Source: Porticoccaceae bacterium (GTDB taxonomy: Bacteria; Pseudomonadota; Gammaproteobacteria; Pseudomonadales; Porticoccaceae). From it: a DNA stretch of 59,806 bases. The stretch is taken from positions 1 to 59,806 of the forward strand of contig JAHEHM010000001.1 in NCBI GenBank assembly GCA_024644585.1. Direction: 5' to 3'. The position numbers and the translations under genes were made by a program. The notes below the pieces were generated by a model, which made no database searches, was not told where the DNA came from, and saw nothing but the letters and a program-made list of their open reading frames with translations. Position 1 is the first letter of the stretch. Every line of letters starts with the position of its first letter. Positions 8,142 to 50,858 of this stretch are shown one piece after another.

Positions 8142-8144
8142 TGC

Positions 8145-9059: not shown

Positions 9060-9069
9060 AATTATTGCC

Positions 9070-10194: not shown

Positions 10195-10203
10195 GCTATT
10201 TTC

Positions 10204-10800: not shown

Positions 10801-10821
10801 AAGTTCTACCTTAGCTTAGTC

Positions 10822-11943: not shown

Positions 11944-11946
11944 AAA

Positions 11947-12417: not shown

Positions 12418-12535
12418 TATGATTTACCTTAAAAAAGAGCGAGTATTCTAACACAACATAGAGCATTGGAGACCCCACCACTGAATACATCCAATGTTCA
12501 GCCTATGTTGGTTTAACTGTTTCAATGAACAGGAT

Positions 12536-12566
12536 AAAAAAAGCCCCAATTTAATGGGGCTTTTAG
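12536..12566 (-). terminator. Rho-independent terminator downstream of glyA
   Basis: AAAAGCCCC-ATTAAAT-TGGGGCTTTTTTTATCC (minus strand). Confidence 0.85.
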
Positions 12567-12585
12567 GGTACCTATTTACCTAAGC

Positions 12586-23555: not shown

Positions 23556-24461
23556 ATGGATGCAGTGCAATCAGGTCAGCTAACGTCAAAACAGGTCTTA
23601 GCTAAACATGGAAAATCTTTTTATTGGGCGAGTTTTTTTCTAGGCAAAAAATTGGCTGATCGCGCTGCACGCCTGTATGAGTTTTGTCGCTTTGTGGATG
23701 ATATTGCTGATGGTGATCTACCCCACCGACATGAGACGCTAGAAGATATCAGTCAAAGTTTAATTAATCCTCAGGTTTCAGCTGGAACAGAGGTGCAAGC
23801 CTTTCTGAAGCTTGCCAAGGATATTGATATCCCCATCAATGCTGCCACAGAGTTACTGGACGGTATGCTACTCGACCAACAGCCTACCGCAGTAAAAGAT
23901 GAAGCCGAACTTTTAAGATACTGTCATGCAGTGGCTGGCACAGTGGGTCTTATGATGTGTAGGGTACTGGATTGTCAGCATGCACGCGCCGATCAATTTG
24001 CTATTGATCTGGGTATTGCTATGCAACTAACTAATATTGCGCGTGATGTTTTGGAAGATGGCAAGATGGGCCGTCGCTACATTCCTGCCGACTGGGCTAA
24101 TTATACTGCTGAGGATATTGCTCAGGCACAGCCCCAATGTCGAGATTCCGTGGCTATGGCCACTAAAAGACTGCTTAATTTAGCGGAAAAATACTATACC
24201 AGCGCCCTATTAGGCATACAGCTACTCCCCTTTAGATCACGTTTTTCGATAACGGTTGCCTTGCGTATTTATCGACAAATTGGCATCGTATTAAGACGTC
24301 GTCACTGCGCCTGGTGGAAGGGTCGAGCAATGGTAGGTAAAACTGAAAAAATTATTATTAGCTTATATAGCCTATTTGACCTTCGGCCAAAAAAAGTCCC
24401 ACCGCACCAATCAGAATTACATACAGCTCTAAAAGGATTGGCGGGTGTTGATGGAAAATAA
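23556..24461 (+). CDS. crtB: Phytoene synthase
   Basis: RLYEFCRFVDDIAD, QLTNIARDVLEDGKMGRRYIP. Confidence 0.96.
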   Translation: MDAVQSGQLTSKQVLAKHGKSFYWASFFLGKKLADRAARLYEFCRFVDDIADGDLPHRHETLEDISQSLINPQVSAGTEVQAFLKLAKDIDIPINAATELLDGMLLDQQPTAVKDEAELLRYCHAVAGTVGLMMCRVLDCQHARADQFAIDLGIAMQLTNIARDVLEDGKMGRRYIPADWANYTAEDIAQAQPQCRDSVAMATKRLLNLAEKYYTSALLGIQLLPFRSRFSITVALRIYRQIGIVLRRRHCAWWKGRAMVGKTEKIIISLYSLFDLRPKKVPPHQSELHTALKGLAGVDGK

Positions 24462-25563
24462 TCTGACTGATGAAATTATCGAAACCGATATCGCCATTAT
24501 TGGCGGCGGTAGTGCGGGAATAACCCTTGCTAGCAAACTGTCACAGCACAATGCTGTGGTAATTGAACCTAAGACCCCTGCCGAGCGCGACGCTTGCTGG
24601 GCATTATGGGCGACCTCTGATCAGCAAGCTAAACTTAAGTCAGCCACTAAGGGTCGTTGGAGTCAGTGGCGACTGGTGGATTATGAGCAAGAGATTATTC
24701 ATAACAGTCATGAATATAATTATATTAGTTTAAGCTCTGCTGATTATTTAAGTGCCTGTGAAGAGACATTATCCGCTAATGTTAAGTTGGTTAGAGCCAC
24801 TGCAGAGAGTATTAAGCCTAAGGGGCATGGCGGCTCTTTTTCTGCACAGGGTCAAAACTATCAGGCTAATTATATTTATGATTCGCGCCCACCTAAGGCC
24901 GCCAAAGAGGGTTTAAAACAACACTTTTTTGGCCTCGAGATTCGCACCAAAAGCCCCCTTAAGGCACCTGATATTGCAACTCTGATGGATTTTCGGGTGG
25001 ACCAATCACGGGGTCTGCATTTTATCTATGCGCTGCCTTACTCCGATCGTGAAATATTGATTGAGTCCACAATGATCTCTAAATCATTAGAACCTGAGGA
25101 TTGGTATAGGCAGGCAATTGATCAGTGGCTCGATCAGCATGGAATTGAAATTGAAACTATTGTGCGTCAGGAGTCTGGAATTATTGCTATGCATAGTAGT
25201 CTTCCCATTGACTCAAACTTGGCGTGCATTGGTGCCGCGAGTGGTGCAGTTAGGCAATCATCTGGCTATGCCTTCACCAATATTCAATCACAGATTAGGC
25301 AACTGGTTGAGGGTATAGAAAAAGGTGAATTCGAGGTGCCAAAACCTCTCTCAAGTCTGCTGAATTATATGGATAAACTTTTTAATGGCGTACTGGTAGC
25401 ACAACCCCAGCTTGCCGTGACCCTTATGATGCAAACGGCTAAATCCCTTAACCCTGAAGGTTTTGCGCGCTTTATGCTGGGACAAGCAACTTTGTTCGAT
25501 TGGATAAGGGTTATTTTAGCCATGCCTAAAATTCCTTTTTTAAAACAGGTATTCAAGCGATGA
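24445..25563 (+). CDS. crtY: Lycopene cyclase
   Basis: DIAIIGGGSAGITLASKL, IYDSRP, GAASGAVRQSSGYAF. Confidence 0.93.
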   Translation: MLMENNLTDEIIETDIAIIGGGSAGITLASKLSQHNAVVIEPKTPAERDACWALWATSDQQAKLKSATKGRWSQWRLVDYEQEIIHNSHEYNYISLSSADYLSACEETLSANVKLVRATAESIKPKGHGGSFSAQGQNYQANYIYDSRPPKAAKEGLKQHFFGLEIRTKSPLKAPDIATLMDFRVDQSRGLHFIYALPYSDREILIESTMISKSLEPEDWYRQAIDQWLDQHGIEIETIVRQESGIIAMHSSLPIDSNLACIGAASGAVRQSSGYAFTNIQSQIRQLVEGIEKGEFEVPKPLSSLLNYMDKLFNGVLVAQPQLAVTLMMQTAKSLNPEGFARFMLGQATLFDWIRVILAMPKIPFLKQVFKR

Positions 25564-26360
25564 CTAGCTGGGATATGGTTGCATTAGTGGCCATCATTTT
25601 ACTGGGTGTTCCCCATGGGGGTTTTGATGCCGCTATTGCCCGACGCAGTGGCTGGCAAATGAACGGTGCACTTGCTTGGCTTGGGTTTCATTCTGCCTAT
25701 CTATTGCTGGCTATTGCTGTGGCAATCCTTTGGTGGTGGTTTCCATTAATTAGTTTAGGTGGGTTTTTACTGATTTCAGGCCTTCATTTCGGGGCCAGTG
25801 ATATCGCAGAAACAGGTTCAGATTGGTTGCCATGGCTTGCTCATGGCGGATTAGTTGCAGTGGCAATACCTAATTTTCATACCGAGGAAGTATTAACACT
25901 GTTTAGTTTTTTAACCTCAGCGCAGGCGGCACAACAATTATTAACAGTTCTTTCTATGGTATTTGTTATCTGGATACTCTGTTGCGCTGGCTACTGTATT
26001 TTTACGATTTATCATCGAAAATATCTAAAGCCATTGCTAAATTTATTAGCCCTTATTGGGGTTATGGCAATAACACCTCCACTGATAGGTTTCGCCCTGT
26101 ATTTTTGCCTTTGGCATAGTCGTGGGCATATGTTGCGACTATGGACTAGCTTGTCATCCAATGCGCGCTATGGTGCAACACGCGAGGCCCTGATTTATAC
26201 CCTTTTAGCATGGGGCACGGGGTTGATATTGTTTTACTATCTGAATGGTTCGCCAACCGAAATTGTTTTCAGACTAACCTTTATCGGCCTTGCTGCTTTA
26301 ACCTTGCCGCATATGATCTTGGTGGATTTATTGGATAAACGAAGGAAATCAGCCTTATGA
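25560..26360 (+). CDS. blh: Brp/Blh-family beta-carotene 15,15'-dioxygenase
   Basis: GVPHGGFDAAIARR, GLHFGASDIAE, CLWHSRGHMLR, LPHMILVD. Confidence 0.95.
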   Translation: MTSWDMVALVAIILLGVPHGGFDAAIARRSGWQMNGALAWLGFHSAYLLLAIAVAILWWWFPLISLGGFLLISGLHFGASDIAETGSDWLPWLAHGGLVAVAIPNFHTEEVLTLFSFLTSAQAAQQLLTVLSMVFVIWILCCAGYCIFTIYHRKYLKPLLNLLALIGVMAITPPLIGFALYFCLWHSRGHMLRLWTSLSSNARYGATREALIYTLLAWGTGLILFYYLNGSPTEIVFRLTFIGLAALTLPHMILVDLLDKRRKSAL

Positions 26361-27361
26361 CCGATATTGGCAAACGTAAACAGGATCATATTGAATTGGC
26401 GCTCAAATCAGAGCATCAGTCCAAGGCAGATTCGAGCTTTGATACTGTTCGCTTTGAGCATAATGCACTACCTGAAATATCGCTGTCTGATATTAGCCTG
26501 AACTGTGAGTTTCTTAATCAGAATCTTGCGGCACCACTGATGATTGGTGCCATGACCGGTGGCTGTGAAAATGGCGATATTATTAATTGTCATCTGGGTG
26601 AAGCGGCTGAGGCCTGCAGTATTCCAATGGCGATTGGCTCACAGCGTGCCGCATTAGAAAATAATCAGCCACAGACCATCAGGCAATATGCTCCAAATGC
26701 GATTTTACTGGGCAATATTGGCGCGACCCAAATACAGCAACAGGGCATTGATTTGGCAAAGCGTGCTGTTGAAGCTATTGAGGCCAATGCACTGATTATT
26801 CACCTGAATCCATTACAGGAACTTGTTCAGCAGGGTGGAGACCGCAATTGGAAACTTGTTTTGGAGGCCATTTATCTCTGTGCCGACAAATTATCAGTAC
26901 CAGTAATTGTTAAGGAAGTGGGTGCGGGAATCAGTCCGAGCAATGCTAAACAGCTTGAGCAGGCTGGAATCAAATGGATCGAAGTCGCGGGTCGTGGTGG
27001 TACTAATTGGGCAAGTATTGAGTATGCCCGTAATCAATCGGATTTTGAGCAGCAGGTTGCTTCGCCTTTTCTTAATTGGGGAATGGATACAGCCAAGCTT
27101 TTGCCCGCTATTTCTGCAAACTGCCCCAGTCTTAATTTAATTGGCTCTGGGGGCGTTAGAGATGGCTTAGATATCGCGCGCTGTATTCGCTTAGGTGCCT
27201 GTGTAACAGCCCTTGCACAGCCGTTTTTGGCGCCTGCCCTTGAGAGTACCGAGGCGGTGATTAATAAAATAGACATTCTTAAAGAACAGCTTCGCTGGGC
27301 CATGTTTCTCACTGGTAGCAAAGATCTTGAGGCACTTAAAACAGCCAAGCTGGAGGAATAA
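26357..27361 (+). CDS. fni: Type 2 isopentenyl-diphosphate delta-isomerase
   Basis: [38 protein letters not shown]. Confidence 0.95.
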
Positions 27362-30296: not shown

Positions 30297-31304
30297 ATGA
30301 CTATTTTGAAAGATATACCTGTCTGGGAAAATGTGGACTATGATTGTTTTCACAATGAGATAGTTCCCCTTAACCAACCCGCTGTTATTAGATCCCTAGT
30401 ATCGGACTGGCCACTGGTCAATGCTGCTGAAAAATCAGCGAATTCTGCTGTTGACTATTTAAAGCCCCTTGATAAAGGTGCCATCACTTCAGCCTTGGTA
30501 GGCACTCCAGAAATTAATGGTCGATTTTTTTATAACGATGAACTAACAGAGCTTAACTTCAAGCGTGCACAGGTCACCATGAGCATTGGCCTTGATCGAC
30601 TTCTAGCTATTAAAGATAACTCAAACCCTCATGCTATCGCTTTACAAGCTATGCAGCTGGAAGATGTTATGCCGGACTTTCAGCCTCTACATAACCAACC
30701 GTTACTTGATGAATCGATTAAACCCAATATGTGGGTGGGCAATCGCGCCGTTGTGGCACCCCATTATGATATTAATGACAATTTGGCCTGTGTTGCTGCG
30801 GGAAGTAGAAAGTTCACCCTATTTCCTCCAGAACAAATCAATAACCTCTATCTCGGGCCCACACTTAACACTCCTGCAGGCGTCCCTATTAGCTTGGTAG
30901 ATATTAGAGACCCTGACATAAAGCGCTTTCCAAAATACACACAGGCTCTTGATGCTGGCTTTGAAGCGATCTTAAATGCGGGTGATGCGATTTTTATTCC
31001 TGCGCTTTGGTGGCATGGGGTCGAGTCACTTGAGACATTGAATATTCTTGTGAACTACTGGTGGGGAGATAATCAAGAAAATAAATTCTCGCCTGGGGAT
31101 AGTCTTCTTCATTGCATGATGAGTATTGCTAAACTCGACCCAGCAAAGCGTGAGTCATGGCGTCATATTTTTGATTATTATGTATTCAAAACTATGGATG
31201 AACCTTCTACTCATTTACCCAAGGATTTAGAGGATATCTTAACTAGCCTTTCTCCTGAACAACAGTCAGCTATTGGAGAATTCCTTGCTGAACAACTTAA
31301 GTAG
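30297..31304 (+). CDS. Cupin_8/JmjC-like Fe(II)/2OG oxygenase family protein (copy 1)
   Basis: HYD...IPALWWHGVE (HxD...H), SRKFTLFPPEQ. Confidence 0.88.
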   Translation: MTILKDIPVWENVDYDCFHNEIVPLNQPAVIRSLVSDWPLVNAAEKSANSAVDYLKPLDKGAITSALVGTPEINGRFFYNDELTELNFKRAQVTMSIGLDRLLAIKDNSNPHAIALQAMQLEDVMPDFQPLHNQPLLDESIKPNMWVGNRAVVAPHYDINDNLACVAAGSRKFTLFPPEQINNLYLGPTLNTPAGVPISLVDIRDPDIKRFPKYTQALDAGFEAILNAGDAIFIPALWWHGVESLETLNILVNYWWGDNQENKFSPGDSLLHCMMSIAKLDPAKRESWRHIFDYYVFKTMDEPSTHLPKDLEDILTSLSPEQQSAIGEFLAEQLK

Positions 31305-31319
31305 TCTAAAAAACGCAGG

Positions 31320-32813
31320 TTAAATTTGCGGTGCTTTACAGTACCTATCTATAAATTGCTGATGTGAAGGCAGTTGATCCACTAGATTATTCACTGAATT
31401 TTTTATTGTCATTAGGAAACCCTTAAGCTCTTCATCTGTCATCATATTAACAATCGGGTGATAATTTTCTGGCAATAGCCCCTGACCTAACATCACCTGG
31501 GACCATGAATTTTCAGCAAATATGTCATTATTCTTCTGAAAAATTCTTCCAGATTTTTTAAATAATTCTATTCTATGTTTTAAAGTTTCAGGTATTTCCA
31601 TCGTTTTACAATGGCGCCAAAATGGCGTGTCTTCTCTCTCAGTCACATGGTAGTGAAGCACAATAAAATCTCGCACAAAGAGGAACTCTTCCTTCATTTG
31701 GGCATTAAATTCATCAACATCTGCAGCATTTATTCCATCAATGGGAAACAGCTGTAACAGCCTAACAATACCACTCTGAATAAGATGAATACTGGTGGAT
31801 TCCAGCGGCTCTAAAAATCCAGCAGCCAAACCTAAAGCCACACAATTTTTATTCCAATGCTGATGTCGCTGACCGGTTGTAAACTTGATAATTCTTGGCT
31901 TAGTTAAAACCTCGCCCTCAATATTATCCAGTAAAGTTTGAGTGGCCTGGTCATCACTAAGGTATTTACTACAAAATACCATGCCGTTACCCACGCGATG
32001 CTGTAAGGGTATTCGCCATTGCCAGCCAGCTTCTCTGGCGATTGATCGAGTATAGGGAATAGGCTCTTCAATTGATCGGGTTTGTACCGCTACCGCACTG
32101 TCACAGGGTAAAAACTCTGTCCAATCATCATACTCAGTTTTAAGCGTTTTATTGATAAGTAAACCAGTGAACCCACTACAGTCGACAAATAGATCGCCCT
32201 CAATAGCTTGACCGCTTTCGAGAATTACACGCTCTATACAACCTGTACCTGAATGGGTAATTACATCTGAAATCTTTCCTTCAATACGCTGACAACCATG
32301 TTGCTCGGCAATTTTACGCAGGTACTTGGCATACAAGCCAGCATCCATGTGAAACGCATAATTCATACCATTATTAGGTAATACCGCAAATTTGTTGTTT
32401 TTTGCAGCCTGTAGCTCGTTACAATAATCTCCAAACTCGCCGCTTATCCCCTGCTGCTTTCCTTTCAACCAGAAATGTTGAAACCCTGCCGCCCAGCAAT
32501 CTTTTCCTGTAAAGCCAAAGGAATGAATATAGTTTTCATCAACATTTTTCCAATTCTCAAATGAGATGCCTAATTTAAAGGTACCCTGAACGGCAGCCAT
32601 AAAGTCCCGCTCATCAATCTTTAATAACTTGTGTAAAGTCAGCATTGTGGGGATAGTAGCCTCACCTACACCTACAGTTCCAATAGCATCAGATTCGACT
32701 AATTTAACATTGATATTTTTACCAATGAGCTTGGAAATTGCCGCAGCAGCCATCCAGCCAGCGGTTCCGCCACCGACAATAACGACATTTTTAACTGGAT
32801 TAGCTTGCATCAA
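31320..32813 (-). CDS. Flavin-dependent tryptophan halogenase family protein
   Basis: VVIVGGGTAGWMAA, GTFKLGISFENW (catalytic Lys region), WQWRIP (WxWxIP), PLESTSIHL (catalytic Glu region). Confidence 0.94.
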   Translation of the reverse strand: MMQANPVKNVVIVGGGTAGWMAAAAISKLIGKNINVKLVESDAIGTVGVGEATIPTMLTLHKLLKIDERDFMAAVQGTFKLGISFENWKNVDENYIHSFGFTGKDCWAAGFQHFWLKGKQQGISGEFGDYCNELQAAKNNKFAVLPNNGMNYAFHMDAGLYAKYLRKIAEQHGCQRIEGKISDVITHSGTGCIERVILESGQAIEGDLFVDCSGFTGLLINKTLKTEYDDWTEFLPCDSAVAVQTRSIEEPIPYTRSIAREAGWQWRIPLQHRVGNGMVFCSKYLSDDQATQTLLDNIEGEVLTKPRIIKFTTGQRHQHWNKNCVALGLAAGFLEPLESTSIHLIQSGIVRLLQLFPIDGINAADVDEFNAQMKEEFLFVRDFIVLHYHVTEREDTPFWRHCKTMEIPETLKHRIELFKKSGRIFQKNNDIFAENSWSQVMLGQGLLPENYHPIVNMMTDEELKGFLMTIKNSVNNLVDQLPSHQQFIDRYCKAPQI

Positions 32814-32823
32814 AAAACCTCAT

Positions 32824-33843
32824 CTATCTTTTTAACTTTTTTGAAAGCCGTTGCATTCTGTCTTCGGCGATCACTTTACTTAACTTTCCAAGTATACCTT
32901 TTGCATTATCTGGAATATGTTCAAAATTTTCATTGTCGGGTGAGAACACATAATGATCAAAAAGATTTTTCCAAATCTGACGTTGATCATCAGGTAAATC
33001 CCGCAAGCCAATAATGGCATGCTCAAGTGCATCTTGAGGCGAGCCCATAAATGTCGGTGAATTTCTCCACCAGTAATTTACCAAAATATTAAAATCCTCA
33101 AGCGCCTCAACATGATGCCACCACATACTAGGAATCATTAGGGCATCACCCGGCTCAAGCTCTACTACCAAAGCTGACTCAAGAGCCTTACGAAACTTTG
33201 GGAATTTATCAAAATCTGGATTTAAGAAATCAACCATACTTATTGATTGACCCGCTGGAGTAAAATCAACAGGTCCCACATAGAGGTTTTCTAATTCTTC
33301 CGGTGGAAAAAGAGTAAATCTCCTCTTCCCAGCTACACAGCAAGCGATGTTCGAAGCAAAATCATAATGTGCTGGAATACGACTTTTATTTCCCATCCAA
33401 ATACTTACTAGTGGGTCATAGTCATCAAATACAATATCATTTTCAGCTCTGAATCCCGGAAGCCATTTATCAACCATCGATGAACCAACATATATCATCG
33501 GGGCATTATCGTCACCAACATGCTTAGTTAATACGGATGAAAGTTGATTTAACGATGAACCCAACACCTGAAAATTAAAATCACTACAATCATTATTATA
33601 AAAAACCCGTCCATTGATCTCCGGCTCACCAAAAAAAACCGTATACAATTCGTCGTTACCGAATTTTTTTAGATATTCAAGGGATTCAACGGGCGATTTC
33701 TTTGACGCTATGACTGATGGCCATGATTGAATCAAGTTTTTAATTAGAATAGGTGAATCTGAAGTGAAAACTTCCTTTGGAATATTATCAGGGCTACATT
33801 CTAAAATTTGCTGTAAATTACTTTTTGAAGCCATAAATCTCAA
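32824..33843 (-). CDS. Cupin_8/JmjC-like Fe(II)/2OG oxygenase family protein (copy 2)
   Basis: IPAHYDFASN...IPSMWWHHVE, KRRFTLFPPEELENLYVGP; clear paralogue of the 30297-31304 product. Confidence 0.88.
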   Translation of the reverse strand: MRFMASKSNLQQILECSPDNIPKEVFTSDSPILIKNLIQSWPSVIASKKSPVESLEYLKKFGNDELYTVFFGEPEINGRVFYNNDCSDFNFQVLGSSLNQLSSVLTKHVGDDNAPMIYVGSSMVDKWLPGFRAENDIVFDDYDPLVSIWMGNKSRIPAHYDFASNIACCVAGKRRFTLFPPEELENLYVGPVDFTPAGQSISMVDFLNPDFDKFPKFRKALESALVVELEPGDALMIPSMWWHHVEALEDFNILVNYWWRNSPTFMGSPQDALEHAIIGLRDLPDDQRQIWKNLFDHYVFSPDNENFEHIPDNAKGILGKLSKVIAEDRMQRLSKKLKR

Positions 33844-33868
33844 AATCTCATTTTAATATTGATTGAAC

Positions 33869-34615
33869 CTATTTTGACTCTAATTTCTCAGCCCATTCTT
33901 TTTGTAATTTAGTATTTTTTCTTTCAATCAATCCAGTGACGCAAGAATAGGATGCAAGAGCCATATAAATTGGCTGTAGATACCCATTGGTGTTTAAGTC
34001 GGCTAATATGAAACCATCCAAATCATTTAACTTATCTTCATTAATCGTATAAAAACCAATCAATTTATTATTTGTATTATCCTTTAAAGGAATTTTTAAC
34101 GTAAAGGGCTCGAGCAATTCATATTTAATCAATGCTTCAATAAAACCCTTATTATGCTCGTGACCATAGTGCAAAGCCTCTAGCTTTTTCATTACTCTAG
34201 TCATATATTCGGTAGGATTGCCGTCAGCATCAAAAACAGACTGCCCAGAGTCCTGCGATATTCTTGGACTGCTAGTTTCAATAGACACTATAGGTTTTTT
34301 ATCACCCTCATCTGAGGCCTGAAAGCCTATGGAAAATGGCTGCCGCTGGATCATCATGGGAATATAACTAGCATTCCAGCCAGCATTATCTAAAAATAAA
34401 TTCTCATTATTTTCAAAACCCAAAAGGGCTATAGGGATGAACTCACCCTCATTATTGCCTTTTGAGAAAAAAATAGGATAGTAAGCCTGTATATTTCTAA
34501 ACTCAAGAGCATGGGTTTCAGCGTACTGAATATTGTCACCGTATGACTCTCCAGTTTCAGTACGTATTTTTAATTCTCTGTGTTTTGAAGGACTTAAAAC
34601 TTCAAAATTGCTCAT
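33869..34615 (-). CDS. SapC family protein
   Basis: YYPIFFSKGNNEGEFIPIALLGFENNENLFL; neighbourhood with TBDR and halogenase. Confidence 0.88.
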   Translation of the reverse strand: MSNFEVLSPSKHRELKIRTETGESYGDNIQYAETHALEFRNIQAYYPIFFSKGNNEGEFIPIALLGFENNENLFLDNAGWNASYIPMMIQRQPFSIGFQASDEGDKKPIVSIETSSPRISQDSGQSVFDADGNPTEYMTRVMKKLEALHYGHEHNKGFIEALIKYELLEPFTLKIPLKDNTNNKLIGFYTINEDKLNDLDGFILADLNTNGYLQPIYMALASYSCVTGLIERKNTKLQKEWAEKLESK

Positions 34616-34719
34616 ATTGACTCCAGCGTCCTAAAACGCAAATAGTTGACTCTAAATCTTATTATTAACAAACAATTACAGCTAGCAGTTTATTAAAACA
34701 GCCCTAGAAAGAGTACAAA

Positions 34720-34750
34720 AAAAAAGCCGCTAATTACAAGCGGCTTTTTT
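34720..34750 (-). terminator. Rho-independent terminator downstream of the TonB-dependent receptor
   Basis: AAAAAAGCCGCT-AATTACA-AGCGGCTTTTTT. Confidence 0.85.
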
Positions 34751-34776
34751 AACATCCTAAACTAGCAAACTAAAAT

Positions 34777-37700
34777 TTAAAATGTGTAACGGAGACCAAG
34801 GTTATATCTTGGTCCGTTTTGTGAAACACCTAAGACCTGTAACTTCTCTCGACCATACCTTCTTAGGGTAGAGTCAGTTACATTAATACCATCAAGCATA
34901 ATGGTTAGATTATCGTTGATCTCATAGGTTGCACTCAAATCAACCTGGCCGTAGGCCTGGGTATTTTGCGGGTTATTTGCGATAAAGTTACCTTTTGTAT
35001 CATAGGCAGCACCCTCATCTTGACCATCACCACCATAGAAGTCATCTCGCCAGTTGTAGGCAATACGAGTACTGAATCCATCTTTATCATAGAAGGCAAT
35101 TAAGTTTGCAGATTCACTTAAACCAACCAGTGCAAATTGTGGTTCTACACAAACTTTATCGGCACTTGAGCCCTCTTCGCAAGGCTTTGAAGTAATGATG
35201 TTATTGTAACCAACATTTGCCCAAGGCTTGGTATAGTTCGCAATAAAGCCGAAACCACTATCACCAAAGTTATGCTGCAGATTAAATTCCCAACCATAAA
35301 CCATGGCTTCTTTTTCATTGATGGGGCGACTCACTTGAAACACAGCATTATCATTTAGTTCAGGATCAGATAACAGAGGAGCTTCTACTGAAATACCCGG
35401 CATAACCTTTGCAATACCAGCAGTATCATAGACTTCGAGTCCCGCTTGGTTTGCATTAATAACATATTCACTGGCGTCTCCCGTCGTAACATCAGGAACA
35501 CCTCTAATTTCTTCGCCGTTTTCATCTATTCTCACAAAGACGTCCAACAACTGGCTTCCTATAGTTTCGTTTCCTATAAAATTCCTAACATCCTTCTTGA
35601 AATAACCCACAGAGAAATAATCTGTATCACCGTAATACCATTCTAAAGATAAATCTAAATTTCTTGATTCGATGGGTCTGAGGTTCGGGTTACCAGAACT
35701 AGCTGATAGGTTTCCATACTTGTATGACTGACCATTTACTGTGGTTCCACCCTTAATAAGATTATAACTCGGGCGAGTAATAGTCTTACTCATTGAAAAG
35801 CGTCCAACTAGGTCGTCAGAAATTTCAACATTGATATCTAAATTGGGCAAAAATATCCCATAGGCGCCTTCACTCACCTTTGGCTCTGGAAGGACAAGCT
35901 CACCCGTTTCCTTGTCTTCCACCAAAAACTCTTGCCTAACTGTAAACTCACTCCCACCTTCCCATGCTGTACCTATAGGGGTAGGGACATAGGCAGTTGA
36001 AAGAACATCCGTTTCTTCATAGCGCGAACCAATGCGTAGGTTAGTAGGCAAGCTGAAATCAAAATCAGTACTCATCTGGAAATAAGCGGATGTTGTGGTC
36101 TCAGCTGTTTCTTTTTCATTGGTGAAATTAGTTGATGCACAATAGAAATCTCTATTTGGCCCATCCAGGTCATCAGAACATGAACCACCTTTCCAGATGT
36201 CGAGTTCATTCACCGGGTATGTTCTTGCTAAATCTGAAAGTGTTTTGATATCAATGTGGAAGGCTTCTGACTGAAGGTACTCATAATCACTGCCAGATAC
36301 AGCATCAAACGCACTCGAAAGGTCAACTCTGGTCAATGCATCGATATTAAGATCTCCAGGATCAGAGATACCACTCCAGGAGTTTCGTTGTACAACAGCG
36401 CTCTTAGTATTATTAGTCACTTCGGTTAACTCGACACCAAAATCAATGCTTGAGAAATCTGAAATATCAAAGGTGCCACCGAATCTTGTCTGTTCAATAT
36501 CCATTCTGGATCGACCATTACTGATAACACTACCAGAGATAATCATGTCATTGGAGTAGATAGGACGATCAGTTTCATCACCCAGCTCATCAGCTGCAAT
36601 ACAACTTTCAGAATCCATACCTAATACAAGTATAGGAAGGTCTTCCGTAAAATAAGCCTTTGAAACACAACGGTTATAGCTAGAAATAGTTACTAGTGAG
36701 CCCGTACCATTGATATTATCTTGCGGACCTGATTTAGCGAGAGACTGGTGGTGATCTAACTCAAGCTGCAATCTATCGGTGGCAAACCATTCAAAATTAA
36801 CGCCGAAAGAATTATTTTGGCTCCTTGATCCGGTAGCACCCTGACCAACAGGATAATCGTTGTTAGCTCTCTCTTCTCGATAAAGTATAGGCGAAGCATT
36901 TGGCGATGAATTATCCCAAACAGTATCCTGCCTGCTAGCCTCACGACCACTGAACCAAGCAGAAAGATCATTGAAATCACTGCCAAACTCGAGACCTGAA
37001 TAGGTATAATCTATGGTTGTGGTTAAAGATTCAATAGGTCTGTACTGCAAAGTGAGCTGGCTATTTTTCCTATCTGCTTCGTAGGAAGTTACTCGATAAG
37101 TCAGATTTTGCGGTAACGAAGTTGTTGCTAACCCATTGGGCATTCCATTATCAACAAACCATTCAGACCAATCAGATTGCGACAACCGACCATGATGAAT
37201 TTGCCCCGCTGCATGCCCATTAGCAGTGTCCATGGGAGCTGAATATAGAGGCCCATCAGCATCTGCTAGAAATGTTTTCCAGCCTGAGACACCTGCATTG
37301 CGATCAGCATTATTTCGCTTTTGATAGGACAGGCTAAGTGAAACACCTAAGGTATCATCCAAAAAAGTATCCGAGACAATGCCTGAAATTTCTGGACTAA
37401 TCCCCTCTCGTTCAAAATCAAACACGTCCCAGACATCTGTAAGGTTCGGAGCAATCTCATCAGTTGCAATTATTGATGTGTCATACATGGCTTTTATGCC
37501 AAAAGAACGAACATAACCAGCTTCAAGGGGCTTAGTAGAGATGATATTGATAAGTGAACCAATGCCACCCGATGGGACCGAAGCGTCACCTGTTTTGTTA
37601 ACAACAACAGCTGCTACGCCTTCAGAAGCGAGATCACCGAAATCAAAAGAACGACTATCACCAGAATGTGTTGGCATTTGGCGGCCATTCAAGGTCACCA

Positions 37701-38022
37701 TATTGTATTCAGGGCCAAAACCACGAACGGTTACTTTGCTACCTTCACCTCTGGATCTATCAATCGATACACCAGTAATACGCTGAAGTGCTTCTGCAAG
37801 GTTAGTGTCTGGGAATTTACCCATGTCTTCAGCAGAAATTGCATCCGCGACACCTGCCGTATCACGTTTAATATCCATTGATTTCTTAAGACTGGCTCGA
37901 ATACCACCCTCAACAATGACCTCTTCGATCTCAAGCTCTTGCGCCTGAGAAAAAGATGGCATCGTGGATCCAACCAATGCAACAGCAACACTGTTAGAAA
38001 GAACGTTCTTCTTGAATAACAT
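34777..38022 (-). CDS. TonB-dependent receptor (Xanthomonas/Caulobacter-type, TIGR01782-like)
   Basis: Signal peptide, plug motif FPDTNLAEALQRITGVSIDR, C-terminal LGLRYTF. Confidence 0.96.
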   Translation of the reverse strand: MLFKKNVLSNSVAVALVGSTMPSFSQAQELEIEEVIVEGGIRASLKKSMDIKRDTAGVADAISAEDMGKFPDTNLAEALQRITGVSIDRSRGEGSKVTVRGFGPEYNMVTLNGRQMPTHSGDSRSFDFGDLASEGVAAVVVNKTGDASVPSGGIGSLINIISTKPLEAGYVRSFGIKAMYDTSIIATDEIAPNLTDVWDVFDFEREGISPEISGIVSDTFLDDTLGVSLSLSYQKRNNADRNAGVSGWKTFLADADGPLYSAPMDTANGHAAGQIHHGRLSQSDWSEWFVDNGMPNGLATTSLPQNLTYRVTSYEADRKNSQLTLQYRPIESLTTTIDYTYSGLEFGSDFNDLSAWFSGREASRQDTVWDNSSPNASPILYREERANNDYPVGQGATGSRSQNNSFGVNFEWFATDRLQLELDHHQSLAKSGPQDNINGTGSLVTISSYNRCVSKAYFTEDLPILVLGMDSESCIAADELGDETDRPIYSNDMIISGSVISNGRSRMDIEQTRFGGTFDISDFSSIDFGVELTEVTNNTKSAVVQRNSWSGISDPGDLNIDALTRVDLSSAFDAVSGSDYEYLQSEAFHIDIKTLSDLARTYPVNELDIWKGGSCSDDLDGPNRDFYCASTNFTNEKETAETTTSAYFQMSTDFDFSLPTNLRIGSRYEETDVLSTAYVPTPIGTAWEGGSEFTVRQEFLVEDKETGELVLPEPKVSEGAYGIFLPNLDINVEISDDLVGRFSMSKTITRPSYNLIKGGTTVNGQSYKYGNLSASSGNPNLRPIESRNLDLSLEWYYGDTDYFSVGYFKKDVRNFIGNETIGSQLLDVFVRIDENGEEIRGVPDVTTGDASEYVINANQAGLEVYDTAGIAKVMPGISVEAPLLSDPELNDNAVFQVSRPINEKEAMVYGWEFNLQHNFGDSGFGFIANYTKPWANVGYNNIITSKPCEEGSSADKVCVEPQFALVGLSESANLIAFYDKDGFSTRIAYNWRDDFYGGDGQDEGAAYDTKGNFIANNPQNTQAYGQVDLSATYEINDNLTIMLDGINVTDSTLRRYGREKLQVLGVSQNGPRYNLGLRYTF

Positions 38023-41211: not shown

Positions 41212-43095
41212 CTAGTTTTTAGAGTAATAGATATTTCTGATATCAAGGCCCTTATTGTCTGCTGAAAAACTACTCCACAGATATAAAATGCCAGTGACAT
41301 CGGTTAGGTCGGCACCCTTATCGATTTTTGCTAGTGGTAGTTTATAGCTAACCCAATCTTCGGTTAGCTGGCTATCCGCTTGTGGGCCAAATGACTGAAA
41401 ATTATTAACCTGTGTGCCCGCTAAAAAGATACCGGTTTGAAAACCAATATTAAAAGCCAATGAAGCATCGCCGCGTATATCAAAATTCAAATAACCTGAT
41501 GCGAAATTAGATAGATTTTCACCATGATCGCCCTGCAGTTCTAGGCCACCACCCCACCAGTTGCCTATGCGGGTAGTCACCTCAATAATACTGTCATCAG
41601 TCATCTGAATATTCATAGTACCTTCCCAAGGGTTAAGTTTTATCTCATTACTTGGGTAGGTCATATCGTTTTCAGTTGAGGGGATCATGGCAGGATTAAC
41701 CACAACATAGGTCTCTGCCTCAACGGGCTTGCCTGCCACAGCATTAGGGTTAACCGTAGTAAGCTTGCGAATGCCCATTTGGCTCTTGAAGGGTGGCAAC
41801 AACACATCTTGCATTAACGCCGCTCGATCTCCCTGATAACTCTTTGTTAAGGGCTTACCACCGCGCGTTAATCCCTCAAAGGCCTTCTGATCCACTAAAT
41901 CCCACAGGGCATATTTAATCGTGTTATCCAAGGCGACTAATCCAAAATGATTTTCCGAACCGTTGACATCGTGGGGGTCTTTCCACTGCTCATCAAAGGC
42001 CTCAAAGTAGAACACCGACATACCTGCCGACTTTTCCCAGTCGCGCATATGTTTATAGAATATTGCCTGCTTGAGCTCATCAGCGGCTTTAGAACCAGTG
42101 GCGCCATAGGCAGTGGCTGCAATCGATGACCAGCCTGTTTCTCCAATATGAATGGGTTTTTCAATCCCCAAACTTGCCAAATAATCCGCTACACCCTGAT
42201 ACTGAGAAATAGCGTACTGTTTAGCGCGCAACATAGCAGCTTCAATCATTTGCTGTTCTGAAAGCTGCTCTTCGTGCTTTAACACCCCCCAAAAATCTGA
42301 ATTGTAGTGGGAGTCATGAAATGGATAGGTATGCACCGAAAGGAAATCAACAGCATTAATTAATTTCACTAGGTCATCTGTATGGTAGCCCTTGTCGCCC
42401 CCACCCCAGGATTCGAAATTATCAGAACTGGTAACCCATAGGTCAGCGGGCAAGTCCCCTGCCTGCTTTAGATCCTGCAAATAATTCACCCAGCGAAGAA
42501 TAGTTTTAGGATAGACAAAGTATTTTACCGCCCATTGCACCATGGCCTCATTGCCCACGGCAATAACCTTAACAATATCTGGGTATTGATTGGCTAATTC
42601 CGCTGCTTTGTTTATTTCCGTGCGATTATTCTCTTCACTTTCTTGATGATGGTCAGGCTCAAGATCTGTCCAAGCATTTTTACAGTCGATCCATGCACCG
42701 AGCATCACATACATTTCAAAGCTTGGATCTGCCTGTTTTAACTCACTAATGGCTTGAAGCATACGTTCCGCTTGAGGAAATTGCGAAGCATTATAGGTGC
42801 GAAGCACTCTCACCCCCATGGCATACAGAATTTGCATATCTTCTTTGAGGTCTGCAACTGTTGGCCCCTGCTCACGGGTTTTTTCGCGATAGCCACCATA
42901 GGAGATTGCCGGATAATTTGGATTACCCAGAATCTCAGCGGCTGAAGGGCTAGTAGACTGATTAGATTGCAAGGCATTGTCACAACCAGAAACCACTAAA
43001 ACCATAAGCGAAATAAGAATAGAGGCAGAAAATATTTTCACTAGTAGAAACCTTATACTGTTATTGATTAATTGGGTCGTAATTATATTACTCAT
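41212..43095 (-). CDS. GH17-like beta-1,3-glucanase lipoprotein with C-terminal beta-rich (CBM-like) domain
   Basis: Lipobox VVSGC; VGNEAM and IGETGWSS catalytic motifs. Confidence 0.88.
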   Translation of the reverse strand: MSNIITTQLINNSIRFLLVKIFSASILISLMVLVVSGCDNALQSNQSTSPSAAEILGNPNYPAISYGGYREKTREQGPTVADLKEDMQILYAMGVRVLRTYNASQFPQAERMLQAISELKQADPSFEMYVMLGAWIDCKNAWTDLEPDHHQESEENNRTEINKAAELANQYPDIVKVIAVGNEAMVQWAVKYFVYPKTILRWVNYLQDLKQAGDLPADLWVTSSDNFESWGGGDKGYHTDDLVKLINAVDFLSVHTYPFHDSHYNSDFWGVLKHEEQLSEQQMIEAAMLRAKQYAISQYQGVADYLASLGIEKPIHIGETGWSSIAATAYGATGSKAADELKQAIFYKHMRDWEKSAGMSVFYFEAFDEQWKDPHDVNGSENHFGLVALDNTIKYALWDLVDQKAFEGLTRGGKPLTKSYQGDRAALMQDVLLPPFKSQMGIRKLTTVNPNAVAGKPVEAETYVVVNPAMIPSTENDMTYPSNEIKLNPWEGTMNIQMTDDSIIEVTTRIGNWWGGGLELQGDHGENLSNFASGYLNFDIRGDASLAFNIGFQTGIFLAGTQVNNFQSFGPQADSQLTEDWVSYKLPLAKIDKGADLTDVTGILYLWSSFSADNKGLDIRNIYYSKN

Positions 43096-43124: not shown

Positions 43125-44438
43125 TTGTTTTGTATGACACCCAGAAATAGAATACGACCCACTTTAAAATTCAAGAGTTTTCTTCACATGTCCCCCGCTA
43201 ACGTCAAATTGCATCAGATTGATAATAAATTTCAACTTAAAGTAAATGGCCAGCCTTTTTATATCAATGGTGCTGGTGTTGATTTTGGCAGCATTAAAAG
43301 CCTCGCCGACTTTGGCGGCAATGCATTTCGTACCTGGCGAGTCAATAATGGTGAGAAAACTGGTCGGGAAATTCTAGATGAGGCTCATCAATATGGGCTT
43401 ATGGTGTGTATGGGACTTGAGGTCGAACGTGAGCGTCATGGTTTTGATTACGATGACGAGGTCGCAGTTGCCAAGCAACTGGCCGAAATCAAGCAAGATA
43501 TTCTCGATCTAAAGGATCATCCTGCACTCTTAATGTGGGGCATTGGCAATGAGCTTAATCTTCGCCATAAAAACCCAAAAGTGTGGGATGCGGTGAATGA
43601 TCTTTCCAAAATGATTCATAAAATAGACCCTAACCACCCTACCACTACCATGCTTGCCGGCGCTGAACCCGATGAAATTAAATTAGTTGCGGCGCGCTGT
43701 CCCGATCTGGATCTGCTGTCTTTTCAGATTTATGGCGAAATAAATAAGCTACCGAGCTTTTTACAAAAAAGTAACTATTCGGGCGCTTATATGATTACCG
43801 AATGGGGTGCCACTGGCCATTGGGAATGTACCCAAACTGATTGGGAGCGACCGATTGAATCCAATAGCACCGAGAAGGCCGCTGACTATCATTCGCGCTT
43901 TTCAAATGTTATTGCCGCAGATAAAACTCAGTGCATTGGCTCCTTTGTTTTTCTGTGGGGACAAAAGCAAGAGCGAACTCCCACCTGGTATGGCTTATTT
44001 TTGGAAAATAATAACAGTACCGAGGCAGCTCAAGTCATGCAGTATCTTTGGACGGGACAATGGGCCACTCATAGAATTCCACAGATAGGTAAGCTTAGGG
44101 TAAATAACATGCTTGCTGAGGAAAACGTTCACTTGCAAGCTCAACAAACCTACAGCGCAACCATCGATATAAAAAGCACAGATAAAAACCTCAGCTATCG
44201 ATGGGAAATTATGGAAGAAGTTGACCGTAATATGGAAAGTGATGGTGGCGATTTTGAGCCTACGCCAGCGATTGTATGGCAGCAATCCGAATCATCTAGC
44301 CTGAAACAGGTAACATTTGTAGCGCCTGACAAAGGCGAATATCGTCTATTTGTTTATATAGATGACTTGCATGGTGGGACGGCTACCGCAAATATGCCTA
44401 TTTTAGTCGAATCGGCAGGGACTCCCTCTAAAGCCTAA
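43125..44438 (+). CDS. Clan GH-A glycoside hydrolase (GH2 TIM-barrel-like), likely cytoplasmic; start may be Met at 43188
   Basis: LMWGIGNELNLRHKN and YMITEWGATGHWE acid/base and nucleophile motifs, no signal peptide. Confidence 0.8.
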   Translation: MFCMTPRNRIRPTLKFKSFLHMSPANVKLHQIDNKFQLKVNGQPFYINGAGVDFGSIKSLADFGGNAFRTWRVNNGEKTGREILDEAHQYGLMVCMGLEVERERHGFDYDDEVAVAKQLAEIKQDILDLKDHPALLMWGIGNELNLRHKNPKVWDAVNDLSKMIHKIDPNHPTTTMLAGAEPDEIKLVAARCPDLDLLSFQIYGEINKLPSFLQKSNYSGAYMITEWGATGHWECTQTDWERPIESNSTEKAADYHSRFSNVIAADKTQCIGSFVFLWGQKQERTPTWYGLFLENNNSTEAAQVMQYLWTGQWATHRIPQIGKLRVNNMLAEENVHLQAQQTYSATIDIKSTDKNLSYRWEIMEEVDRNMESDGGDFEPTPAIVWQQSESSSLKQVTFVAPDKGEYRLFVYIDDLHGGTATANMPILVESAGTPSKA

Positions 44439-44587: not shown

Positions 44588-46009
44588 ATGTCTCAAGATA
44601 ATTCGTTGCAATCCTCAAATAGTAATTTGGTCCCCTTTAGTCAAAAAGTCGCCTTTGGTATTGGTATGTTAGCCAATCAGATGTTCCCTGCAGCACTGGG
44701 TATCTTTATGGTCATTCTGGTTCAGGGCTTGGGTATGAGTCCGGTTCTATGGGCACTAATTTTCTTTATCCCTAAATTGATTGATGCGGTAACCGACCCG
44801 TTAATGGGTTATATCTCCGATCATACTAATTCGCGCTGGGGCAAACGCCGACCCTATGTGTTTGTCGGCGCCATTATCTCTGGACTGTCATTTATGATGA
44901 TGTGGCAGCTGTATGCCACTAATACCGAGATGTATAACTTCTACTATTTTCTCTTTTGGGCCTGTGTATTCTGGATTGGCATGACTATTTTTGGGGTTCC
45001 CTACGTAGCCATGGGCTATGAGATGAGCTCCGACTTCCATGAGCGCACACGCATTATGGCAGTCGCCCAATGGATTGGTCAGTGGGCTTGGGTGATTGCA
45101 CCCTGGTTCTGGATTATTCTGTATGACCCTGACTGGTATGCATCAGCTACTGAAGGCGCTAGAACCCTTTCACTATGGGTTGGCGGTGGCTGTATGATAA
45201 TGGCATTAGTACCCGCTATTTTTTGTACCCATACAACGCCTGCCTCAGCTAAGCAATATGAAGATGATGGCAAATCATTAAAAGAAACCATGCATGACTT
45301 TTGGCGCGGCATCGTTGTTACTTTGCGCAATAAGCCTTTCCAAAAAATCTGTATCGCCACCTTCTTTATCTTCAATGCTTTCCAAGTAGTGGCTGCATTC
45401 TCTTGGTTTATTGTTGTGTACTACATGAATGAAGGCGACCCAGCGGCTGCCGGTGTATGGCCAACATTATTTGGTTCTATTGGTGCATTATTCACCACCT
45501 TTATGGTGATACCGATCGTCAATTACATGGCGCAAAAATATGGTAAAAAGGCCACCTTCCTTTACTCACAGGCTATATCTTTGGTGGGTTATGTCCTTTT
45601 TTGGTGGGGATTCTCTCCAGAAAACCCATGGATGATGTTTATTCCGTTACCGCTATTTGCGTTTGGTATTGGCGGCCTCTTTACCATCATGATGTCAATG
45701 ACGGCTGATGTCTGTGACTTAGACGAACTAGAGACCAATCAGCGAAGAGAAGGCACCTTTGGCGCTATCTACTGGTGGATGGTTAAGTTTGGTGGTGCCT
45801 TTGCCGGTGCTGCGAGTGGCTTGATTTTAAGCGTAATCGGCTTTGATCAGTCGGTGGCATTACAGAGTGATGAAACACTCACCCTACTTCGACTGAGCTA
45901 TATTATTATTCCTTGTACTGGAACTTTGATCGCGATTTTTGCCATGCGTAACTATGATTTAGATGAAGAGCGCTCTCAAGAAATTCGCACTCAGCTAGAA
46001 GCTCGTTAA
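44588..46009 (+). CDS. GPH family / MFS sugar transporter
   Basis: PKLIDAVTDPLMGYISDHTNSRWGKRRPYVFVGAI. Confidence 0.94.
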   Translation: MSQDNSLQSSNSNLVPFSQKVAFGIGMLANQMFPAALGIFMVILVQGLGMSPVLWALIFFIPKLIDAVTDPLMGYISDHTNSRWGKRRPYVFVGAIISGLSFMMMWQLYATNTEMYNFYYFLFWACVFWIGMTIFGVPYVAMGYEMSSDFHERTRIMAVAQWIGQWAWVIAPWFWIILYDPDWYASATEGARTLSLWVGGGCMIMALVPAIFCTHTTPASAKQYEDDGKSLKETMHDFWRGIVVTLRNKPFQKICIATFFIFNAFQVVAAFSWFIVVYYMNEGDPAAAGVWPTLFGSIGALFTTFMVIPIVNYMAQKYGKKATFLYSQAISLVGYVLFWWGFSPENPWMMFIPLPLFAFGIGGLFTIMMSMTADVCDLDELETNQRREGTFGAIYWWMVKFGGAFAGAASGLILSVIGFDQSVALQSDETLTLLRLSYIIIPCTGTLIAIFAMRNYDLDEERSQEIRTQLEAR

Positions 46010-46085: not shown

Positions 46086-49000
46086 TTATTCTAATCCTGG
46101 CTCCAATGCAACCTTGATTGAGACCACTTCGCCAGTCTTATCAAAGATTGACAGTGAAGTCTCAGCATCAATAGCATCACCCGCAATGGCTTTTTCACTG
46201 CCATCAGCATAGCTCACCACAATAGAGGTCTGCTTAGCTAAACTATAAACCACTGGAACCTGACAGTAGGTAAAGCCAAGCTGTCCAGCTGCAAGCGCAA
46301 CGCTTTGCTGTTCACCGGAAATATCAAAGTAGCTGAGATTAGCAGATGAAGATAGGAACTCTGACTTTCTAAGAATAAAGGGTCTAAAGCAGATAGTACC
46401 CTGAGAAACCGAAACACCCAGTTCCATAAGACGTGTAATCACTTCTTCTTTCACCTGACCTGTCATGCCCGGCTGTTTAGCGCCGGCAAAACCTGGTGTA
46501 TGTGAATATGGATCCGTAGGGAAGGCACCATAATTTTCTGGTGTTTTATTAAAGCCAATACCCGCACGAATATCGAAGTAACAGTCTGCTAACTTTCCTA
46601 CCACAACCGGATCAGAATCCTGCTCAAGTGCTTTACGGAAGTTTTCTAGCGCGGCTAGCAATAACTTAGACACCATATGCCAGTAAATTGAACCCAACCC
46701 TTCATAGGCATACATACCGCCTGAACGGCCTGTAAACTGACGATGGTTGAAGACAGATTCAAATATTTCTTCAATTAACGGCTGCTCTTTTTGCACTAAT
46801 GCGTCATAACCATTTGACTTAAGGGTCTCGAGCACAGCCTTAGCACTATCAACATTATTAAAAGCGCCATTAAAGTGGTATCCACCCTGCGAATCTTTTT
46901 CTACTAATGATGTATTGCCAGAAGACACTAATGTTTGCAGTAATTCTGAACGCTTAAGTTGGTCTGCAGGAATAATGTTCTTATCCACATAGCGCGTAAG
47001 CTCACGATCTGGATATAACAGATAAGAGTGCTGACGGGCAGTATATACAGCTGATTGTCTCAGAGATGTTAGCACCTCAAGAGCCTGCTCAGGGTTTAAA
47101 TAGCCCGAACTCAATACCGCAACTTGACCCTCTAGCATCTCATACAAATAGTTGACTTCGACAGAGTCGTCTTTGGCAGTCATTAGATTGTAGGCATGAT
47201 AAAGACCGTCTTCACGACGGTTAGCCTCAATTGTATGATCAATATACTCAAGTGATAGATTTAGGAATGCAATCAGGTCTGCCGTTTTAAGCATAACGCG
47301 ATTACCACTAAAATCATTAGCATAGACATCGCCTCTAAACTGACTACCGGCTTCACCTAGTGCATCAACGACAAGCTTTCTATCAGCATCGTTAATTTTT
47401 CCTGCCAATAGTTGCTTGTTATCTTCGAAAGTACTGTTAATTGATCTTAGTAGCGCTTCAATTTCTTCTGAAATAGCCACTTCTTCAAGTTCAGTATTAG
47501 CAAATAAATCGAGAAGATACTGCTGATAACGACGGGTGTAATACAGTGTTACCATCGATACGCCGTAGCCAACCAATGCATTATTCGCGTCATTCCATTC
47601 CGGACGCTGGGTATTCATCCAGATTCCGCCTTCAGGAATAAAGTTTGATAACTTAGATAGCATGGTCGCAAGTAGCTTTTCAGTCAGATTTACATAGTAA
47701 ACTGAGCCGTTTTTGTCCCATATAAGACGACCATCAGCACCTACCTGTGATACGCGCTGTTCGATAAGCTCATCAGCTGCTTCATCAAAATCAATCGTAT
47801 TATGCGGATCATCCAAAAGATCCTGATAAGGTTTGATTTTGTAAGGCACATTGGCATAACAAAATAGATCACGGGTCAGGAAATCGCGAAGCGTGCCTGG
47901 GTGGTGATCATTTGAAAATTCTAAGAATTTAAGCAAATAGATAATTTGGTGATCGCCCCAATAACCGATATTTGCCCAAGGATCATGCGGATCTGGCTTT
48001 TCCCAATCAATACCTGCTTTGGTAATTCGATAAGGGTTGTAGCCATCGGCGGTAGAAGCATTAACAAACTTACAAATCATACTTTCAATGTAGTTTGGAA
48101 TAGAGAAACTCAGCGCTTCCCAGTTCTGGAAAATATCTCGCCAGTTGCCTTCAAAGTTAAGCAGCTGTGAACCATCATCTTGCTTCACTTTAATATTAAA
48201 CTTATTCCAGGGTCGCGAAGGATCACCATGACGACGACTAAAGCTTAATGGAAGGTATTCAAAACAAATGCGCTGAACGCCAGCATCATTTTGTTTTGCA
48301 GCAGCCTTAATAAGATCGCTGTAGTGGAAGCTATCCTCTAAGCCATCAAAAAAGCTTTGGAAGTTACTGTATACATCGCGATTAAAGCCTTTAACAAACT
48401 CAATAAAGTCAGCTTTAGGAACCGAGTAGTTATCAACAAAAAGTCCACCACGCATAACATTAAACAAGACATTGGCAAAATGATGATTAGCACTCAATTC
48501 ATCTTCAGTGACCTGTAAGCCATCGGAAATACCCACAATACGCGCCAGATTTTCTGAACCTAAGGCAATATCGTCTTCAATCTCTTGTTTGATATTTTGA
48601 TTGGAATGTAAGTCTGCAATTAAATCTTTAACTTTTGCAGGGCCTTGATTGATTTCAGCTACGATACTCCAGCTAGATTCTGCAGATGCCGCCAGCTCAA
48701 TAGTATCGCTGACAAAATAAGCACCGCGACGGCCTCTCACATCGAGCTCTTGCTCGATAGATTCACCATGACGGAAGTCGTCTAGCTGTAATGATGAAAC
48801 CAGTTTTTTCGAATTAGGTAAGCCAACAGACCATACAGTGGTAGTTGATAGCGCTTCACTGGGTTCAGCACGATCCACCAGAATAGAACTCATACTATAA
48901 AGGCCAAGACCAGAATCTGCCTCAAGCTCATTCTTTTTATAGGCATCGACCAAACAGCTTAGAGAACCCTGAACATCGGGTTCAACACCGTAGGGAATCA

Positions 49001-49952: not shown

Positions 49953-50843
49953 ATGTCTAAACGAGAAGGAAAAATTTTATCCCTAACAGGTACAGATATT
50001 TCTCAGCTAAACCAAGTACAGTTGCAGGACCACTTTAAAAAGTGCCTGGATTCTGGCATTCATGGTATTGGGTTTAGTGCCTTTAGAGAGGGCCAAGAGC
50101 CCGGTGATCAGTTAGACATTGAGCAAATTCAAGAACGCATGGCAATACTTAAACCCCATACTGGCTGGGTGCGTTCATTCTCCTGCTGTTTAGGCAATGA
50201 GCTTATTCCTATGGTTGCAAAACAAAATGGGCTGAAAACCCTCGTTGGTGCATGGCTCGGCGATAACCTTGAAAAAAATGAACTTGAGATTGAAGGACTT
50301 ATTAATTTAGCCAAAAAGGGTTACGTTGATGTCTGCGCAGTAGGCAATGAAGTTCTCTATCGCGACGATCTATCCGAAGAGCAGTTACTTGAATATATTG
50401 CCAGAGTGAAGGAAGCGGTTCCCAATTTGCCAGTAGGCTATGTTGATGCCTACTATGAGTTTGAAGATCGTCCAGCAGTGACTGCAATCTGTGATGTTAT
50501 TCTTGCCAATTGCTACCCATTCTGGGAAGGCTGTCCTATTGAATATTCCTTGCTGTATATGAAAGACATGTACAATAGAACCATAAAGGCTGCCGGCGGT
50601 AAAAAAGTAATTATTACTGAAACAGGCTGGCCCAACCGCGGGCAAAGTTTCCATGGTGCAGTGCCTTCAGAAGAAAATGCCATTCGCTACTTCTTAAACA
50701 GTCAGCAATGGTGTGAATCAGAAGATATTGAAATGTTCTATTTTTCATCCTTTGATGAATCATGGAAAATTGGTGCCGAGGGTGATGTTGGTGCCTACTG
50801 GGGTTTGTGGGATAAAGACGAAAAATTAAAATACTCAAAATAA
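49953..50843 (+). CDS. GH17-like beta-1,3-glucanase, no signal peptide
   Basis: AVGNEVLYRD and IITETGWPNRG motifs. Confidence 0.88.
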   Translation: MSKREGKILSLTGTDISQLNQVQLQDHFKKCLDSGIHGIGFSAFREGQEPGDQLDIEQIQERMAILKPHTGWVRSFSCCLGNELIPMVAKQNGLKTLVGAWLGDNLEKNELEIEGLINLAKKGYVDVCAVGNEVLYRDDLSEEQLLEYIARVKEAVPNLPVGYVDAYYEFEDRPAVTAICDVILANCYPFWEGCPIEYSLLYMKDMYNRTIKAAGGKKVIITETGWPNRGQSFHGAVPSEENAIRYFLNSQQWCESEDIEMFYFSSFDESWKIGAEGDVGAYWGLWDKDEKLKYSK

Positions 50844-50858
50844 AATAAAATAAATAGT

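Follow-up and report, generated by a model that had tools for sequence, protein, structure and literature searches.

A module of five genes, encoding a flavin-dependent halogenase, two JmjC/Cupin_8 proteins, SapC and a TonB-dependent receptor (TBDR), occupies positions 30297 to 38022 of a 59,806-nucleotide stretch from a Porticoccaceae bacterium (assembly GCA_024644585.1, contig JAHEHM010000001.1, positions 1 to 59,806), here called the window. The first-pass annotation had described this module, and all five genes prove to be intact open reading frames (ORFs) whose families are confirmed by Pfam or NCBIfam profiles:

30297..31304, + strand: JmjC-1, a JmjC/Cupin_8 protein (PF13621, E 7e-61), with HYD at residues 156-158 and WWHG at 238-241
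31320..32813, - strand: HAL-A, a flavin-dependent halogenase (PF04820, Trp_halogenase, 638 bits)
31800..31802, - strand: codon of HAL-A Glu338 (PLEST motif), conserved in 55/56 relatives
32574..32576, - strand: codon of the catalytic Lys80 of HAL-A, conserved in 56/56
32824..33843, - strand: JmjC-2, a JmjC/Cupin_8 protein, FIH-like Fe(II)/2-oxoglutarate dioxygenase (PF13621, E 9e-71)
33869..34615, - strand: SapC (PF07277, E 7e-66, profile positions 1-217 of 220)
34777..38022, - strand: class I TonB-dependent receptor, the cassette's first gene (TIGR01782, Plug and barrel)
36955..36957, - strand: codon of receptor Trp356, the best candidate target residue, in the motif SAWF (36952-36963)

The ORF of HAL-A is listed from a TTG, with an in-frame ATG one codon downstream (32808-32810), and that of JmjC-2 likewise, its ATG lying three codons downstream (33832-33834). 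In a crude hydropathy scan combined with reading by eye, only the receptor has a signal-peptide-like N-terminus, in keeping with the earlier remark that none of the enzymes carries a visible signal peptide. HALB, the second halogenase of the canonical cassette, is absent from the window.

The module is genuine and widespread, and it goes together with its receptor. A pattern search through 84,980 species genomes yielded 17 relatives of the halogenase, and these were annotated together with 40 stretches from related genomes; the nearest relatives include Porticoccaceae assemblies. The canonical order TBDR-HALB-SapC-JmjC-HAL is found in Xanthomonas, Lysobacter, Pseudoxanthomonas, Rheinheimera and Porticoccaceae-like genomes, and a Luteimonas contig has it without the receptor end. 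The Mitsuaria cassette lacks HALB, as do the window and locus L103, and the sister loci L005 and L084 have HALB and no JmjC-2. Individual enzymes thus vary between loci, and the receptor, SapC and HAL are kept. JmjC-1 lies as a convergent copy at the end of the cassette, an arrangement repeated in same-genus genomes as well as in L179 and L239. In class II operons, the receptor is followed by HAL alone or with more halogenases (L091, L095, L104, L108, L111, L112, L178, L182), or by HALB only (L183). Reduced SapC-JmjC forms include TBDR-SapC-JmjC-SapC (L105), TBDR-SapC-JmjC (L230) and TBDR-JmjC (L231, L232), and HALB variants include TBDR-HALB-SapC (L180, L237) and TBDR-HALB-SapC-HALB (L236). 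The receptor is the constant member of all these variants, and it always comes first. Gaps between operon genes are short (medians 4.5-175 bp, at most 308 bp), and those checked in the window hold only ORFs of 29 aa or less, the conservation of small ORFs across loci not having been scanned. From these short gaps, a precursor of a ribosomally synthesized and post-translationally modified peptide (RiPP) within the operon was judged unlikely. In one related genome (G016, locus L086, 11544-14080), an in-frame stop interrupts HAL and JmjC-1 is split, so the cassette may be decaying there.

The first-pass annotation had proposed a co-occurrence check, and co-occurrence with the receptor is strict. 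A class-I receptor profile run over 56 related genomes identifies 26 carriers, all of which have both SapC and a strong halogenase (at least 100 bits). Among the other 30 genomes, five have SapC and four a strong halogenase, and contig ends in some of these could hide a receptor. Fisher p values are ~3e-11 for SapC and ~4e-12 for the halogenase, although more than half of the genomes come from one genus and are thus not independent. Receptor and halogenase distances are correlated (r 0.885, Mantel p 0.0005), and the class-I halogenases are monophyletic (support 0.93). In genomes with both operon types (G017, G018, G029), halogenases group by operon type rather than by genome wherever both were sampled. 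The source assembly (1.41 Mb, estimated 91% complete) contains one true halogenase, one SapC and one receptor above the TIGR01782 cut-off, a further PF04820 match being fragmentary (21 bits); this small genome thus keeps exactly one such cassette. No description of the operon was found in the open-licence literature, subscription journals and preprints lying outside the scope of the search.

Judged from sequence, these genes would somewhat probably form a maturation cassette, in which cytoplasmic enzymes modify the exported receptor. Of the two readings put forward at first pass, modification of the receptor or of another exported protein gains indirect support: from the co-occurrence, from the reduced forms in which the receptor still comes first, from the sharing of the halogenase family between alpha- and beta-glucan receptors, and from the SapC neighbors, which include giant exported-type proteins and protein-modifying enzymes.

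HAL-A has all the motifs noted at first pass, and they are invariant or nearly so in its relatives: GGGTAGW (residues 14-20), FKLG with K80, WQWRIP (264-269, the WxWxIP motif) and PLEST with E338. By its sequence it is a halogenase of the BrvH/Xcc4156 clade, with the GxGxxG, catalytic Lys, WxWxIP and active-site Glu that define group C. Its nearest solved structures are Xcc4156 (6y1w), then 9luq, then BrvH (6frl). The identity to Xcc4156 is 58.5% over an alignment with a single one-residue gap, and the halogenase in the operon of Xanthomonas sp. AmX2 shares 71% identity with Xcc4156. HAL-A has short substrate loops and no free-Trp site, and it shares the ATIP and HSFG motifs of group C as well as the catalytic Lys and Glu (ATIPTM and HSFGF, versus ATIPSL and HSFGH in the motif table of PMC8269204). 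The active sites of Xcc4156 and BrvH are open, and both enzymes accept indoles for halogenation, though not free Trp; their authors proposed peptide substrates for Xcc4156, the native substrates being unknown as of 2020 (PMC7336383). The operon setting described here suggests one. HALB is a distant second halogenase whose own Lys and Glu are intact (42/42) and whose nearest solved structures are 2pyx and 9ltb.

Halogenation of Trp would be the most likely reaction of the halogenase. The closest competitor, though an unlikely one, is that these flavoenzymes are peptidyl-Trp monooxygenases acting on a receptor Trp to give hydroxy-Trp or a cross-link. HAL-A does show weak NCBIfam similarity to QhpG (E 6e-6), LodB and GoxB, and the halogenase-like QhpG dihydroxylates peptidyl Trp in the cytoplasm (PMC7876137). 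Nevertheless, the motif set of HAL-A is that of a full halogenase, including K80, WxWxIP and E338, and bromination of indoles in vitro has been shown for its relative Xcc4156 (PMC7336383).

The JmjC proteins would add a second activity to the putative maturation cassette. Both have the intact HxD...H reported earlier, in the form HYD...H, which is the metal triad of FIH-like JmjC Fe(II)/2-oxoglutarate oxygenases, and the triad of JmjC-2 (H159, D161, H243) is invariant in 53/53 relatives. The two are paralogues with 36.2% identity over 315 aa. The best solved relative of JmjC-2 is human FIH (E 8e-23), the local similarity spanning 110 residues. The bacterial protein differs from FIH in that, from reading the alignment, Arg174 takes the place of the FIH 2-oxoglutarate residue Lys214.

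SapC is proposed to be the client-recognition partner. Its AlphaFold2 model is confident (predicted local distance difference test, pLDDT, 91.9), yet Foldseek returns no match at E<=0.001 in PDB or BFVD, and a profile search of PDB sequences gives chance matches only. No known function was found in the literature, nor any solved relative by sequence or fold search, and a scan of viral contigs found no SapC. In a class-wide sample of 370 genomes, SapC occurs in 49 and a strong halogenase in 19, many of the latter adjoining SapC; SapC is therefore much broader than the cassette. A same-strand ORF of at least 1200 aa lies within 3 kb of 19/33 receptor- and halogenase-free SapC loci, compared with 14/591 background genes (150-400 aa, taken from the retrieved loci; p 6e-19). 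The giants examined include RTX proteins, repeat proteins without Pfam match and one protein with a TPS domain, and further neighbors of receptor-free SapC include ShlB, OEP, HlyD and SecA-like genes, belonging to two-partner, type I and SecA-like secretion. At L229 (G407:C18:176001-192000), positions 3534-13528 hold HAL and SapC beside a TPR-GT41 glycosyltransferase, a carbamoyltransferase, an APH-type kinase and an Asp/Asn beta-hydroxylase, with an OEP (outer membrane efflux) gene nearby, and the locus looks like a protein-modification island. All this is consistent with SapC acting alongside exported surface proteins and the enzymes that modify them. The family name implies an S-layer component; the neighbors suggest a partner of exported proteins instead, and no signal peptide is apparent.

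Two further observations concern SapC loci. In L220-L228, L240-L259, L109 and L114-L116, SapC often comes directly after a giant ORF 1200-3200 aa long, many of these giants having no Pfam match. At L227 (7074-11233, - strand), a TPR-methyltransferase protein and an 849 aa ankyrin-repeat protein follow a lone SapC on the opposite strand.

The receptor scores 572 bits against TIGR01782 (cut-off 310), has Plug and barrel domains, and by reading shows a TonB-box-like EVIV at residues 34-37. The position of Trp356 is a Trp in 39/39 receptors encoded in operons with both HAL-A and SapC, and a Phe in the halogenase-less TBDR-SapC-JmjC-SapC operon (L105). Of 18 cassette-free receptors, 16 lack Trp356, and the other two are paralogues in one genome with two cassettes; the cassette-free L235 has a Tyr there. 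The residue, in a motif SxWF, sits among about 60 residues that separate two strand-like segments, which makes a location in a long outer loop probable. It is the best candidate for the target site, to be taken as a lead only. The idea of one Trp target common to all receptor classes was rejected, as Trp356 is missing in class II.

Several points weigh against receptor modification, or against this site. Trp356 is kept in the cassette-free paralogues L137, L138, L233 and L234, all of whose genomes hold a cassette elsewhere, and it is missing in L236, which is a halogenase operon (HALB-SapC-HALB) and counts equally against a universal target. The conserved Trp may simply bind glucan, sugar binding being common for such residues, and class-I receptors are mutually related. 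No receptor column tracks the presence of HALB or JmjC-2 (six operons per minus group). The AlphaFold2 model of the receptor, built with 12 sequences, is too poor for placing residues (pLDDT 47), so that loops are placed by reasoning from the sequence. The correlation of distances is weak evidence, since linked genes co-evolve anyway and physical linkage could be enough to produce it. Finally, at L229 the halogenase-SapC pair has neither a receptor nor a giant ORF within the 16 kb seen.

The cassette-free paralogous receptors of cassette-bearing genomes also leave room for a different exported client, for instance some other receptor or a glycoside hydrolase, the receptor gene being only co-transcribed; we find this improbable, since in class I and class II operons alike no exported partner other than the receptor is constantly present.

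The genes around the cassette bear on its ligand. The glucan-utilization setting assigned to the window at first pass is borne out by a GH17-type enzyme and a sugar symporter, which point to beta-glucan:

41212..43095, - strand: GH17-type glycoside hydrolase (PF00332, E 5e-8)
43125..44438, + strand: GH2-like TIM-barrel protein (PF02836, E 4e-5)
44588..46009, + strand: GPH-type sugar symporter (PF13347, E 8e-71; TIGR00792, 207 bits, narrowly missing the cut-off of 231)

Class I operons elsewhere likewise neighbor beta-glucan genes (GH3 with Exop_C, GH16, GH1), and class II operons neighbor alpha-glucan genes (alpha-amylase in 12/53 proteins scanned, GH97, GH77, CBM48, GH31). Flavin-dependent halogenases require electron-rich aromatics, and the adjacent receptor does import something, so the enzymes might act on an imported aromatic ligand or on an aromatic substituent of the polysaccharide. 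This second reading of the first-pass annotation is weakened to the point of being rather improbable. The loci are plain alpha- or beta-glucan loci, no aromatic-catabolism gene recurs among the neighbors, and no inner-membrane transporter for aromatic uptake is conserved with the cassette. The same halogenase family serving both kinds of loci makes a shared aromatic ligand unlikely; as neither glucan has an aromatic ring, we infer that the halogenase most likely acts on the shared operon partner, the receptor. That the cassette makes a small halogenated compound or signal and only shares its regulation with glucan uptake has an equally slim chance: many PF04820 enzymes belong to natural-product pathways, but no nonribosomal peptide synthetase, polyketide synthase, RiPP precursor or export gene recurs here, the short gaps leave no obvious precursor ORF in the window, and co-occurrence is strict with one receptor type.

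Other parts of the window are noted in passing. Beyond the symporter, at 46086-49565 and 49953-51770, there is a second large receptor-like ORF (1159 aa, by reading), along with two ORFs weakly similar to GH17. At 23556-27361, reading reveals apparent carotenoid/retinal genes (phytoene synthase, lycopene cyclase, Brp/Blh-like, type II isopentenyl diphosphate isomerase), a set that suggests retinal use by the bacterium.

Receptor maturation in the cytoplasm can be compared with known systems. As in those of the HMW1C or Qhp type, the enzymes are linked to and co-occur with an exported protein, here the presumed client. In the HMW1ABC system, cytoplasmic HMW1C, a GT41-like glycosyltransferase, modifies a two-partner-secreted adhesin (PMC2877744). 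The enzyme is encoded beside the adhesin and acts before its secretion. The reaction there is Asn glycosylation, whereas halogenation and hydroxylation of a TonB receptor are predicted here. During Qhp (QHNDH) maturation, halogenase-like QhpG modifies peptidyl Trp before export; however, this is a hydroxylation for cofactor formation, the sequence match is weak as stated above, and SapC and JmjC are not named (PMC7876137). The carbohydrate-utilization (CUT) loci of Xanthomonas and Caulobacter also combine a TonB receptor with sugar enzymes, but the paper describing them mentions halogenase, SapC and cupin 0 times (PMC1790865).

A model of cassette action can be proposed. The receptor would be made with a Sec signal and modified by the cytoplasmic enzymes before or during export. 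SapC may bind the receptor chain, and the BrvH/Xcc4156-type halogenase, using FADH2 and O2, would halogenate one exposed Trp, Trp356 in its predicted long loop being the best candidate. In seawater, the product would most likely be brominated. The FIH-like JmjC protein or proteins may hydroxylate another side chain. The altered receptor would then be inserted into the outer membrane, where it takes up beta-glucan. In a bolder version, conceivable but doubtful, SapC would guide a cytoplasmic cassette that equips nutrient receptors of the outer membrane with bromo- or chloro-Trp and a hydroxylated residue, and would serve in general as the adaptor by which giant exported surface proteins are singled out for this treatment. 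The first-pass annotation was right about the parts of the module and partly about their meaning; the second halogenase, the reduced variants and the wider association of SapC had escaped it.

The conserved operon gives a halogenase clade, as well as SapC, one concrete client candidate in the form of the receptor encoded first, and the BrvH/Xcc4156 halogenases have already been crystallized and assayed. If the proposal is true, enzymatic protein halogenation would be tied to polysaccharide uptake, one of the ways in which marine bacteria consume algal glucans, and the cassettes would be a source of enzymes for site-specific protein halogenation. It would also add a new type of protein modification to those of the bacterial surface, and could explain the role of a puzzling group of halogenases.

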